From: Acidobacteriaceae bacterium
GTDB lineage: Bacteria; Acidobacteriota; Terriglobia; Terriglobales; Acidobacteriaceae
Reading direction: 5' to 3'
Assembly (NCBI GenBank): GCA_003139095.1
Contig: PLHW01000044.1
Span: 248,538-290,304 of the forward strand
Length of the DNA stretch: 41,767 bases
Notes under the pieces: generated by a model
The model's input: the letters and a program-made list of their open reading frames with translations, nothing else
Told to the model about the DNA's origin: nothing
Databases searched by the model: none
Program-made: the position numbers and the translations under genes
In this document: positions 1 through 3,171 of the stretch, one piece after another
Numbering within the stretch: the first letter of the stretch is position 1
How the letters are laid out: each line of letters opens with the position of its first letter

Positions 1-774
1 GGCGACGTTGCCGCCGCCGATGACGAGGACGTTGCGACCAATGGTGAACTTGTATCCGAGATTGACGTTGAGGAGGAAATCGACACCGCGATGAACGCCA
101 TCGAGGTCAACGCCGGGGATGGTGAGATCGCGGCTGCGGTGGGCGCCGATGGCCAGAAGAACGGCGTTGAATCCCTGCTGGCGGAGTTCGGAGATTTGAA
201 AGTCACGGCCGGCGCGGTAATTGAGTTTCAAGTTGATGTCGCCAGTGGAAAGAATCTCGCGGACCTGGGCTTCGACGACGTCGCGGGGGAGACGGTACTC
301 GGGGATGCCGAGATAGAGCATGCCGCCGGCGACGGGAGCGGCCTCGAAGATAGTGACGGAATAGCCCATGAGGGCGAGGTCGTGGGCGGCGGCGAGCCCG
401 ACCGGGCCAGCGCCGACGACAGCGACTTTGAAGGGCAGTTTGGTTTTGACGGCGCCGGCGTTCACGTCGATGTGACGCTTGGACTCGGGCCCATAACGCT
501 CGGTGAGAAAACGCTTGAGGGCGCGGATGGAAATGGGTTTGTCGATTTGACCGCGGCGGCAGGCGGTTTCGCAGGGATGAGCGCAAACGCGGCCGCAGAT
601 ACTGGCAAGAGGGTTGGGGCCGCGGGCGTACTTATACGCTTCTTCGAAACGGCCCTCGGCAATGAGGCCGACGTAACGACCTGCGTTGGTGTGCGCAGGG
701 CAGGCCATCATACAGGGGAAGTTAGTATGGAGCCAGTCCTCATCCACCCGCTTTTCTAAGAAGCGCTTCAGCAT
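1..774 (-). CDS. GltD-like NAD(P)H-dependent flavoprotein (glutamate synthase small subunit family), 3' end cut by window edge
   Basis: Reading the minus strand from ATG at 774 gives 258 codons open to the window edge. The N-terminus carries the cysteine-rich Fer4_20-type domain of GltD and dihydropyrimidine dehydrogenase: a CMMACPAHTNAGRYV stretch near residues 21-35, then CGRVC, HPCE and ACRRG, which in the family ligate two [4Fe-4S] clusters. A Rossmann FAD motif (VAVVGAGPVGLAAA) follows near residue 110, and a second dinucleotide motif (VLVIGGGNVA) lies right at the edge. The family moves electrons from NAD(P)H to a partner such as the glutamate synthase large subunit. No partner is visible, so a different partner oxidoreductase is possible. 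The frame stays open upstream of 774, but the chosen Met begins the conserved MLKRFLEKR segment. No strong SD is seen. Confidence 0.85.
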   Translation of the reverse strand, partial: MLKRFLEKRVDEDWLHTNFPCMMACPAHTNAGRYVGLIAEGRFEEAYKYARGPNPLASICGRVCAHPCETACRRGQIDKPISIRALKRFLTERYGPESKRHIDVNAGAVKTKLPFKVAVVGAGPVGLAAAHDLALMGYSVTIFEAAPVAGGMLYLGIPEYRLPRDVVEAQVREILSTGDINLKLNYRAGRDFQISELRQQGFNAVLLAIGAHRSRDLTIPGVDLDGVHRGVDFLLNVNLGYKFTIGRNVLVIGGGNVA

Positions 775-914: not shown

Positions 915-968
915 GGGGCTAAAGCCCGCATTCTTCCAAGCCCTAAACGGCACGGCTAAAGCCGTGCC
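915..968. repeat. Tandem hairpin intergenic repeat
   Basis: Two inverted repeats sit side by side between the flavoprotein and the cupredoxin genes. The first pairs GGGCT (916-920) with AGCCC (923-927). The second is a perfect 8-bp stem, GGCACGGC (949-956) with GCCGTGCC (961-968), around a TAAA loop. Both share a GGCTAAAGCC core. This looks like an interspersed REP-type element rather than a factor-independent terminator, because no T tract follows on either strand. Confidence 0.6.
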
Positions 969-1028: not shown

Positions 1029-1616
1029 TTATTTGCTTACTGTGAAATCGGCTTTGGAGTCGCCGGATACTGCGACTGCCTTGGTGGAGGCCTTGGCGCC
1101 CTCATGCCAGGCCACGACGTTGTATTGGCCGTCGGGAACGTTTTCGATTTTGTAGTCGCCGCTCTTGTCGGTCTTTGCGAAGTATGGAGTGGGCGAGACG
1201 ACGATGTATCCGGCCATTTCCGGGTGAACGTTGCAAAGAAGCGAGGCGACACCGGGCTGATCAAATTTGAAAGGACGCTTTTCACCCTGGGGCCAGGTTC
1301 CGAGATTTTTGCCGGGGAGTTTTTTGGATCCCTGCATGACGGATGGCCAGAAAACGTTGTGGGCGACCTTGTCGCTATTGAGGAAATCCACGGTCGTTCC
1401 GGCCTGGACGATCATAATATGCGGGGAAAAAAGCAGACCCTTCTGATCCATGACGGGATGGTCGGCGGGGGCGGGGAACGTTTTTCCGGCGATGGTGTCA
1501 ACGTAAACGACGGACTCGCCGTTCACGCCTGAGACTTTTCCGCTGATGCTGCCGGCACTAGCAGCGATGGCGAGTGCCAATACGACGGTGAAAATTGCTA
1601 CGAGATTGCACTTCAT
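1029..1616 (-). CDS. Secreted cupredoxin with C-terminal carboxypeptidase-regulatory-like domain
   Basis: 195 residues. The chosen ATG at 1616 is preceded by a good SD (AGGAGA) and begins a signal peptide (about residues 1-21, ending ...AIAASA). A plastocyanin-like copper domain follows, with all four type-1 ligands in order: His86 in KVAHN, then Cys128, His131 and Met134 in CNVHPEM. Residues 145-195 (DKSGDYKIENVPDGQYNVV) resemble a carboxypeptidase regulatory-like beta-sandwich. A blue-copper protein like this acts as a periplasmic electron shuttle. It lies 61 nt downstream of the cytochrome-porin gene on the same strand, so co-transcription is likely and the two may be electron-transfer partners. 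The frame is open further upstream, but those residues overlap the preceding gene and lack SD support. Confidence 0.85.
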   Translation of the reverse strand: MKCNLVAIFTVVLALAIAASAGSISGKVSGVNGESVVYVDTIAGKTFPAPADHPVMDQKGLLFSPHIMIVQAGTTVDFLNSDKVAHNVFWPSVMQGSKKLPGKNLGTWPQGEKRPFKFDQPGVASLLCNVHPEMAGYIVVSPTPYFAKTDKSGDYKIENVPDGQYNVVAWHEGAKASTKAVAVSGDSKADFTVSK

Positions 1617-1677
1617 GATTTCTCCTTGTCCGAGTTGCGTGCTTAGTTTCGTGTACGACGGAAACGTGTGAGACAAA

Positions 1678-3171
1678 CTAATAGACCCATTCCAGGCCAG
1701 CGATAGCTTGATTTGTGCGGAACGGGTTGGAGAGCGCATTGCCGGCACCATCATAGATTCGTTGCTGCGGCCTCACCTGATACTCAAAGGAGGCTTTGAT
1801 GTTGGCGTGAATCAGGAACTGGATACCGGGGCTGATACGGTTGCGGGTGGAGCTGGCGGGCGAGAAATAATTGGTGCTGCCACCGACCTCCGCGTTATAG
1901 AGGTCGGCCTCAGACTGAACGCGGTCGTAACGCATGATGGCCATCAGCCAGGGGAGCGCGAGGTAATCGGTCTCAAGAAATCCGCCGCTGAAATGCGCGG
2001 GAGAACCGTTCACGAAGCCAGTACCAGTGCTGTTGTAGAAGAGATCTTTGTCGTGTCCGTACATGTAAAGGCCGAAGAAGTTGAAGGTGCGGTAGTTGAA
2101 GCTGAAGTCGCCGCCGGTGCGGTAGAAGGGCTCCTGGGCGGTGAGGACGCCATTTTCCGCGGTCACGTGCTGAGCAGAGCGTCCGTAAAAGTAGTAGGTA
2201 CCGAGCTGGAGATAGGTGTGATCGCGCGGGCCATTTGGTCCGGCAGCCTGAACATCGTTGCGGCTGGTCGTATCCTGCTCGAGGTTGAAGCGATATTGGA
2301 CGCGGCCGTAGATGTCTTTAAAGTTTGAATCGGAAAATATTCCGACCTCAGGACTGACGTTGGGCGCTGGGTTCGTTGTTCCCGAGGTGTTTTGATTGAG
2401 GATGGCGAGAGAGTAGTGATAGCCACCGTAGTTGTGGCCGCCGCTGATTTCGACTCCCTGCCCCGCGGAGGAAAAGGCAAAGGTGTTGGCGACGCCGGGC
2501 AGGCCGTTGGCGGCGCCAAAGTTCGCCTGATCGTAGATGTCCCACCCGCTGAGGTTCCAAGTGCGAGCCTGGCTGAAGGGCAGGTCAATCTCGAATTGCC
2601 CGATGCGCAAACTGAGGGAGTCGGTGGGCAGCTTGAAGAGGCGGCCGAGGTTGACGAACTTGAGATAGCCATCTCCCAACTCGCCGTTGGCGTTTAATCC
2701 GCCGACGCTGATGTCGTCGTCAACCCAGAAGGCGATGCCATCGCCGAAATTGCCGGCGGTAAAGATGCTGAAGAGGCCGGGCTGAAAGTCGGTTCGAGGA
2801 ATGTAGGGTCCGGTGGTACCGGCGTTGAAGTTGTTCGCGTTTTTGGAATAGACCTGAAAAAAAGTATTGAAGCGGAGGCCGATCTGGGGCATGCCGGGGA
2901 TGGTGCCGGGCCAGATGGTGTGGGGAAACATTTCTTTTTGCGCGGGGGCGCCGAGCATGACGGGCGGGACTTTTATGAAATCCTCGTCGTTCTTGGGGAA
3001 TTTGAAGCCGGCGTCTTTGAAAGCTTTGCCAAAGTCGTTGAGCTTGGGGAAATCGATGTGGCAAGTTGTACAGGACGTGCCGTACTGGCGCGAGAAGGCG
3101 GGAATGGCGAAAGTGTTTTGCGACACGACAAACAGGAACCCGACAAGAACCAGCAAGGCGGCATTTCGCAT
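1678..3171 (-). CDS. Cyc2-like outer-membrane monoheme cytochrome-porin
   Basis: 497 residues from ATG 3171, which has SD GAGGAG upstream. Residues 1-22 are a signal peptide (LLVLVGFLFVV). The mature N-terminus AIPAFSRQYGTSCTTCH contains one c-type heme site (Cys34, Cys37, His38), followed by FPKLNDFGKAFKDAGFKF. This closely matches the signature of Cyc2 iron oxidases: a PxFxRQ-G segment, then CxxCH, then FPxLxxFG and FK. The remaining 430 or so residues alternate aromatic and polar stretches with many Tyr, Asn and Gly and end in ...GLEWVY, as expected for an outer-membrane beta-barrel with a C-terminal aromatic. Length fits fused cytochrome-porins. Known Cyc2 proteins take electrons from Fe(II) at the cell surface. 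Assignment here rests on the motif and architecture only, so another donor or a different role is possible. The cupredoxin gene follows directly. Confidence 0.75.
   Translation of the reverse strand: MRNAALLVLVGFLFVVSQNTFAIPAFSRQYGTSCTTCHIDFPKLNDFGKAFKDAGFKFPKNDEDFIKVPPVMLGAPAQKEMFPHTIWPGTIPGMPQIGLRFNTFFQVYSKNANNFNAGTTGPYIPRTDFQPGLFSIFTAGNFGDGIAFWVDDDISVGGLNANGELGDGYLKFVNLGRLFKLPTDSLSLRIGQFEIDLPFSQARTWNLSGWDIYDQANFGAANGLPGVANTFAFSSAGQGVEISGGHNYGGYHYSLAILNQNTSGTTNPAPNVSPEVGIFSDSNFKDIYGRVQYRFNLEQDTTSRNDVQAAGPNGPRDHTYLQLGTYYFYGRSAQHVTAENGVLTAQEPFYRTGGDFSFNYRTFNFFGLYMYGHDKDLFYNSTGTGFVNGSPAHFSGGFLETDYLALPWLMAIMRYDRVQSEADLYNAEVGGSTNYFSPASSTRNRISPGIQFLIHANIKASFEYQVRPQQRIYDGAGNALSNPFRTNQAIAGLEWVY

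Follow-up and report, generated by a model that had tools for sequence, protein, structure and literature searches.

A gene for a Cyc2-like monoheme cytochrome-porin (porinA) and the gene next after it, for an exported type-1 copper protein (cupA), form the 5′ end of a longer conserved row of genes with a Rieske protein, cytochrome b and a nicotinamide adenine dinucleotide (phosphate) (NAD(P))-type flavoprotein. The pair lies on the minus strand of a 41,767-nucleotide (nt) stretch of DNA (the window, G000:C28:248538–290304) from an Acidobacteriaceae bacterium, whose draft genome (G000) is 5.53 Mb in 75 contigs. We put at about even odds (roughly 0.5) the reading that this row encodes a trans-envelope electron conduit, running inward from Fe(II) and uphill to quinone and NAD(P)+, with a paralogous locus resembling the Acidithiobacillus rus operon as its downhill branch. 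Published work is cited below by its PMC accession and from excerpts of each paper.

The porin and copper-protein genes

The main features of the pair, in window coordinates, were as follows.

1678–3171, minus strand: porinA, Cyc2-like monoheme cytochrome-porin of 497 amino acids (aa), from its reading frame, predicted barrel and orthologues
3109–3171, minus strand: hydrophobic N-terminal export signal, residues 1–21, read by eye (helix at residues 2–15 in the model)
3082–3108, minus strand: AIPAFSRQY, the published Cyc2 motif AXPXFAR[Q/K][T/Y] with one departure (S for A)
3058–3072, minus strand: CTTCH heme c site, residues 34–38, then PKL (the Cyc2 PXL motif)
1684–2883, minus strand: predicted 16-strand outer-membrane barrel, residues 97–496, from the model and fold matches
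1029–1616, minus strand: cupA, exported type-1 copper protein of 195 aa, a cupredoxin with a CarboxypepD_reg-like C-terminus
1359–1361, minus strand: first copper ligand, His86 of CupA
1215–1235, minus strand: copper loop C-N-V-H-P-E-M (Cys128, His131, Met134)
1041–1193, minus strand: CarboxypepD_reg-like C-terminal beta domain of CupA, from Pfam scores

The two genes were separated by 61 nt, the distance given in an earlier note made from the letters of this DNA, and GAGGAG and AAGGAG were found just 5′ of the two start codons (ATG). That note had also read one CXXCH heme site and a beta-barrel-like remainder in the upstream protein, and both readings held. The single CXXCH of PorinA (CTTCH) sits within AIPAFSRQYGTSCTTCHIDFPKLNDFGKAF; its C34, C37 and H38 were invariant in a 65-row alignment (P0001 plus 64 loci, excluding L114, L124 and L156, which are cut by contig ends). 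PorinA ends in Tyr, and Tyr or Phe was the last residue in 64/64 full-length orthologues counted. An AlphaFold2 model (mean predicted local distance difference test score, pLDDT, 68.0; predicted template-modelling score, pTM, 0.70) gave a barrel with 16 strands of at least 7 residues, counted by hand from the listing. By Foldseek against the PDB, the model matched general porins (DcaP, E 9.6e-11; PorB; OmpF) and OprO (4rjw, template-modelling (TM) score 0.50 by query length). Among the 50 rows listed, TM-scores by query length were a modest 0.31–0.50, thus supporting a porin barrel and no particular porin. Sequence searches with PorinA gave nothing in Pfam or NCBIfam at E values up to 1, nor in the PDB at values up to 10.

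Cyc2 has been described by a signal peptide, one CXXCH, AXPXFAR[Q/K][T/Y], PXL, a length of at least 365 aa and a 16-strand barrel (PMC8406198, in the part available). Like the Cyc2 proteins of Mariprofundus PV-1 and Acidithiobacillus and Cyt572 of Leptospirillum, PorinA has one CXXCH in a short N-terminal domain, followed after four residues by PXL, here PKL; it exceeds 365 aa, its barrel is predicted to have 16 strands, and OprO is among its PDB fold matches. One CXXCH and PXL were each found in 67/67 orthologues extracted. The strict motif was broken in PorinA by FSR for FAR; it was kept in 22 of these orthologues and failed by 45, and a relaxed form was present in all 67. The relaxed-motif and PXL counts are partly by construction, the scan patterns having covered both stretches, and 13 of 80 loci without a clean open reading frame (ORF) with heme motif and suitable ATG are omitted from the 67. 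Since PorinA departs at one published motif residue, it was not placed in the strict Cyc2 class and is called Cyc2-like. Compared by profile with six Cyc2-like proteins encoded on proteobacterial plasmids, one of these from Acidithiobacillus ferrooxidans, PorinA aligned over 60 N-terminal columns only, at a probability of 97.7 and E 1.8e-12; comparisons between Cyc2 groups likewise align the N-terminus only (excerpts of PMC5566968). The Cyc2-like reading of the upstream protein in the earlier note was supported, with the one departure from the published motif.

The His/Cys/His/Met type-1 copper site read in the next gene proved intact (His86, Cys128, His131, Met134), and CupA passed the Pfam Copper-bind model (PF00127) with 30.0 bits against a cut-off of 21.2. 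An upstream His and the loop C-x2-H-x2-M were present in 73/73 downstream copper-protein orthologues. The C-terminus scored 31.6 bits with CarboxypepD_reg, slightly below the cut-off of 32.3, and passed the related fn3_3 model (30.4 against 24.4). The nearest solved relatives were plastocyanin, amicyanin and the copper domains of nitrite reductase, all weak matches. In rusticyanin the loop spacing is C-x4-H-x4-M, and CupA was therefore rejected as a rusticyanin; because of the loop, the CarboxypepD_reg-like domain and the weak plastocyanin/amicyanin-type matches, that name can serve as an analogy only. Elsewhere in G000, a CupA-like gene lies beside a 553-aa ORF without CXXCH that is porin-like by eye (L074 4290–6904), and an adjoining 590-aa ORF of the same stretch is sensor kinase-like by eye; a fourth CupA-like place has no heme ORF nearby.

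Conservation of the gene row

Beyond cupA the row runs on in the same strand, past the left edge of the window (L003 14323–7960).

1–774, minus strand: 5′ part of the gene for a flavin adenine dinucleotide (FAD)/Fe-S NAD(P)-type oxidoreductase (PRK12771-like)
L003 7960–9540: exported 526-aa protein of the row

The order after cupA was FAD/Fe-S protein, Rieske protein, cytochrome b, a separate cytochrome b C-terminal subunit (a split b), octaheme cytochrome c (eight CXXCH), monoheme cytochrome c with a Big_1-like domain, and the 526-aa protein. A scaffold join of two Ns cuts the FAD gene at the very edge of the window; the gene product resembled PRK12771 below the cut-off of that model and carried two further 4Fe-4S motifs. 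Between cupA and the FAD gene lie 254 nt in G000 and, between aligned parts, 98 nt in L038; palindromic elements GGGGCTAAAGCCC and GGCACGGCTAAAGCCGTGCC occur in this gap at window 915–968. The family of the 526-aa protein had no Pfam or NCBIfam match, and an orthologue (L081) was modelled as apparently two similar alpha/beta domains (pLDDT 84.3). Among the identified genes of the row, no substrate-specific gene was seen. G000 also gave matches to 3 cytochrome b, 7 NrfD and 4 COX1 proteins (clusters of two of these 14 places were read), and the complex of the row is therefore not the sole respiratory one.

With the porin as query, 84,980 species genomes were scanned, and the best 80 of 528 confirmed relatives were analysed. 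Among these 80, 79 were named Acidobacteriota or taxa inside it, and 79 were titled metagenome-assembled genomes (MAGs), so that few carriers seem to have been cultured. One record titled Ignavibacteria (L119) has a PorinA that is 78% identical to that of the window in its best segment; that genome is probably misbinned, the alternative being recent transfer. The copper gene came next after the porin gene in 73/73 loci with at least 700 nt downstream (the other 7 of the 80 stop too early to show it), within 400 nt in 72 of them and at 427 nt, between aligned parts, in L157. Chance adjacency of the two genes was thus ruled out, and the linkage on which the earlier note had staked its proposal was borne out. 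That note had further called the pair not a usual module in a Terriglobia-like bacterium; this did not hold, as a porin match above 300 bits was found in 21/61 genomes (G000 and 60 relatives) and the module recurs across Acidobacteriota.

Of 51 long loci (at least 7.5 kb), 41 carried the FAD, Rieske, both cytochrome b, multiheme and monoheme genes. Seven had just the multiheme, monoheme and unknown-protein genes after cupA, two the unknown-protein gene only and one the copper gene only; a gene is called absent in these maps where tblastn with the G000 proteins gave no match at the set limit. The 526-aa family was matched in 49 of the 51. For the 35 loci in which the porin, the cupredoxin, cytochrome b and the FAD protein all passed length filters, pairwise distances of the four proteins correlated at 0.81–0.955, consistent with joint inheritance of their genes. 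In L141, L142, L144–L152 and L157, one or two copper genes lie directly 5′ of a multiheme cytochrome gene, and no Rieske/cytochrome b match was found there (some of these contigs are short); L157 has an 11-CXXCH ORF and then an ORF resembling a b-type cytochrome by eye.

The octaheme cytochrome of L038 was used as an independent bait on 297 genomes drawn across Acidobacteriota (limit E 1e-60) and was found in 29. Twenty of these were newly inspected; G000, G036 and G033 had already been mapped with porinA, and six others are outside the count. The Rieske and cytochrome b genes were matched in 20/20 of these loci, the FAD protein in 19/20 (exception L216) and cupA in 19/20 (L215 starts beyond that point). 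Two clusters (L208 and L215) end at a contig edge before the porin slot; a Cyc2-like porin was found in all of the 18 observable clusters, as an intact ORF in 17. The porin of L209 has the heme motif with an in-frame stop just after it, from a pseudogene or an assembly error. The 80-locus set and the sets of fetched genomes overlap partly (e.g. L080/L041 and L085/L203), and the porin-query and bait counts are therefore not fully independent.

Five of the 18 clusters carried a different Cyc2-like subfamily, AVPS[FY]ARQTG..C..CH, with heme positions (operon orientation) as follows.

L204 14307, L205 7489, L206 14147: porin at the 3′ end of the row
L218 5268, L219 5321: porin at the 5′ end of the row

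In a tree of 29 proteins, which carries the program's long-branch warning, this type joined the proteobacterial Cyc2-like proteins with support 100/100, and PorinA, PorinB (see below) and deeper acidobacterial porins fell on the opposite side. To judge from these sequences, the role is probably filled by two distant Cyc2-like subfamilies, and their presence in the same row argues for selection on function.

The rus-like locus and the proposed direction of electron flow

G000 held one further porinA match, porinB, in a rus-like locus outside the window.

G000:C50 about 115280–123870 (L004 7281–15869): rus-like locus

Its genes were, in order, porinB, diheme c, cupB (for a cupredoxin-like protein), a gene encoding a STAS domain, coxB, coxA, two genes resembling coxC and one resembling coxD. 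The published order of the Acidithiobacillus rus operon is cyc2-cyc1-cup-coxBACD-rus. The G000 locus keeps the order cyc2-like gene, diheme c, cup, coxB and coxA of that operon, and differs from it by the inserted STAS gene and by CupB, which has a CarboxypepD_reg domain. No rusticyanin gene was identified in the stretch covered, which ends soon after the coxD-like gene. The order porinB-diheme c-cupB-coxB-coxA was found in 16/16 loci (G000 and 15 relatives, hand-picked from the weaker rows of the porin search, not random), with coxC in 14/16 and coxD in 13/16; two contigs stop early. The loop C-x2-H-x2-M was present in CupB in all 16, and CupB was 37% identical to CupA. Nine of the 16 genomes also had a porinA match above 300 bits and seven did not. 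At the strict limit of E 1e-30, porinB was rare (6/297 phylum genomes).

We infer from these gene sets that the products of the row may form one chain, a trans-envelope electron conduit with PorinA as its end in the outer membrane and CupA as its end in the periplasm. The single heme c of PorinA, bound in the short N-terminal domain of the barrel protein, would swap electrons with an external dissolved couple, most likely Fe2+/Fe3+. CupA would ferry electrons through the periplasm, handing them to the octaheme and the monoheme cytochrome. A dedicated Rieske/cytochrome b complex would join these cytochromes to the quinone pool, and the FAD/Fe-S protein of NAD(P) type would sit on the cytoplasmic face of that complex. 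Electrons from Fe(II) could then be driven uphill by the proton gradient, via the Rieske/b complex, to quinone and NAD(P)+. The paralogous rus-like locus would carry the downhill flow to O2, a split like that between rus and pet in A. ferrooxidans, and in an apparent heterotroph the conduit would supplement energy rather than support autotrophy. The earlier note had proposed an extracellular electron-transfer unit on Cyc2-rusticyanin logic; a Cyc2-like porin, its cupredoxin partner and the transfer logic are retained here, and the rusticyanin survives as an analogue. Inward flow with Fe(II) oxidation is favoured as the net direction: wherever Cyc2 has been tested it oxidises Fe(II), and the same genome has a rus-like locus.

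Several observations weigh against this reading. Besides the departure of PorinA from the strict Cyc2 motif, its heme domain was poorly modelled (residues 17–83 and 85–94 at pLDDT below 50), and just two of the four CupA-like places of G000 adjoin Cyc2-like porins. In 10/51 long loci the stretch from cupA to the unknown-protein gene lacked some or all of its intervening genes, so the porin and cupredoxin can manage without the Rieske/b block. CupB had no Copper-bind match at E 0.001, which makes its cupredoxin label less secure. The NCBIfam model closest to the cytochrome b of L038 (G036 orthologue) was Geobacter ExtP (262.3 bits, cut-off 290), and the octaheme protein of L038 scored 97.9 bits with ExtS (cut-off 100); both being below the cut-offs, membership in the Geobacter ext group was rejected. 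The octaheme orthologue (L038 6291–8366) did pass the SoxX model, with 146.4 bits summed over four stretches against a cut-off of 61. The usual course through Rieske/b complexes is from quinol to cytochrome c. No match to RuBisCO or CdhC was found in G000 (1 of 24 genomes of its genus has a RuBisCO match), and there is therefore no obvious CO2 fixation that would need reverse electron flow; in a search for ATP-citrate lyase the control genomes themselves had no match. A review, in the part available, describes Acidobacteria as Fe(III) reducers (PMC8790237).

The serious rival is the same conduit run outward, in which the Rieske/b complex would oxidise quinol or NAD(P)H, and electrons would travel by way of octaheme c, the cupredoxin and the porin heme to Fe(III) complexes or other soluble acceptors outside the cell. 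We regard it as possible, if doubtful. It suits a host that looks heterotrophic, with neither RuBisCO nor CdhC matched, and the resemblance of cytochrome b and octaheme c (L038) to ExtP and ExtS. According to excerpts of the papers concerned, the ext cluster acts in selenite and tellurite reduction (PMC5877670), Geobacter without extHIJKL reduced Fe(III) citrate to ~65% of wild type (PMC6148476), Fe(III) reduction is reported for Acidobacterium capsulatum and Acidicapsa, and for A. ferrooxidans a route has been proposed that leads from the quinone pool to Cyc2 by way of bc1 and rusticyanin (both PMC8790237). However, Mariprofundus Cyc2 is able to oxidise iron in vitro, with verification reported for members of the two other Cyc2 clusters (PMC8406198, in part), and G000 keeps a rus-like locus with cox genes. 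Known electron exporters mostly use multiheme conduits, which also counts against outward flow. ExtI, moreover, is a porin without heme, and an extI mutant was unaffected in Fe(III) citrate reduction (available text of PMC5877670), so that the two Geobacter studies differ on this acceptor: no effect on loss of extI versus ~65% without extHIJKL.

Less probable again, and in our judgement unlikely, is a conduit for another soluble couple (Mn, Cu, a sulfur compound, a phenolic or humic shuttle, or a selenium or tellurium oxyanion), the copper protein being chosen for its higher potential. The substrate cannot be read from sequence, and the ext-cluster resemblance, the SoxX-model match and the breadth of carriers would fit a wider role, as would the occurrence of Cyc2 homologues in many bacteria not known as iron oxidisers (PMC5566968, in excerpt). 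The SoxX match may leave a sulfur role; generic cytochrome c similarity could explain it. The absence of a substrate-specific gene among those identified in the row speaks against a non-iron couple, and the rus-like second locus suggests iron by analogy. The idea that the porin and copper protein serve metal uptake or handling (copper or iron homeostasis), with a structural heme and no electrons leaving the cell, gains something from the CupA-like gene beside the porin-like ORF without CXXCH (L074), yet it is very improbable given CXXCH invariant in 65 rows, copper ligands in 73/73 orthologues, 41/51 long loci joined to respiratory genes and 7 more joined to a multiheme cytochrome; a plain uptake porin was rejected on the invariant heme site and copper ligands.

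Relation to described systems and implications

Cyc2 homologues have been noted in Acidobacteria near Leptospirillum Cyt572 (PMC10654088), and Cyc2 matches in four deep-sea acidobacterial MAGs (PMC10367259), both from excerpts. Among the open-licence PMC papers listed, neither a porin-cupredoxin-Rieske/b row nor a rus-like operon in Acidobacteriota was found described in the titles, abstract openings or excerpts. The new element seems to be the combination of the Rieske/split-b/octaheme row with a Cyc2-like porin and a cupredoxin.

Like the pet/bc1 uphill branch of A. ferrooxidans, the Rieske/b module of the row would by analogy be tied to a Cyc2-type entry, with a separate oxidase branch. Unlike pet/bc1, the row has a split, b6-like cytochrome b, an octaheme c in place of c1/CycA, and an FAD/Fe-S NAD(P)-type protein. 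A Rieske/split-b/octaheme operon is known from Nitrospina, Kuenenia and Methylomirabilis through work that also considers the part of cytochrome bc complexes in reverse electron transport (PMC3578206, in part). By that partial description it shares with the row an Fe-S protein, a split cytochrome b and an atypical octaheme c, and is set apart in that no porin or cupredoxin is named with it. Geobacter extHIJKLMNOPQS likewise clusters an outer-membrane porin-like protein with Rieske, cytochrome b and multiheme c; in the excerpts available ExtI is heme-less and no cupredoxin is listed, whereas PorinA has a heme site. From Cyc2 itself PorinA differs in joining a Rieske/b-NAD(P) row as well as in its FSR, and its partner is a cupredoxin; the six proteobacterial Cyc2-like plasmid loci instead have c-type cytochromes nearby (their gene tables being incomplete), and one of them has a high-potential iron-sulfur protein.

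Acidobacteriota are among the most abundant soil bacteria, and those carrying the row are not usually thought of as iron oxidisers. Tentatively, many soil, peat and permafrost Acidobacteriota regarded as heterotrophs may carry a complete two-branch apparatus that uses dissolved Fe(II): a rus-like outer-membrane-to-oxidase locus, and a row wiring a Cyc2-like porin, via a copper protein and octaheme c, into an NAD(P)-linked Rieske/b complex. If true, this would be a physically linked, reversible iron-to-NAD(P) line, which was not found described in known iron oxidisers. The Cyc2 family is also widened: screens demanding PXFAR[Q/K][T/Y], such as that of one published database (PMC8406198, in part), would drop the porinA-type members that fail the strict motif. 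For tests of reverse electron transport, the NAD(P)-linked Rieske/b row offers a defined target. If the conduit works with iron, a major soil lineage would draw energy from iron or balance its electrons with it; this would bear on carbon-iron coupling in peat and permafrost, and would supply marker genes.

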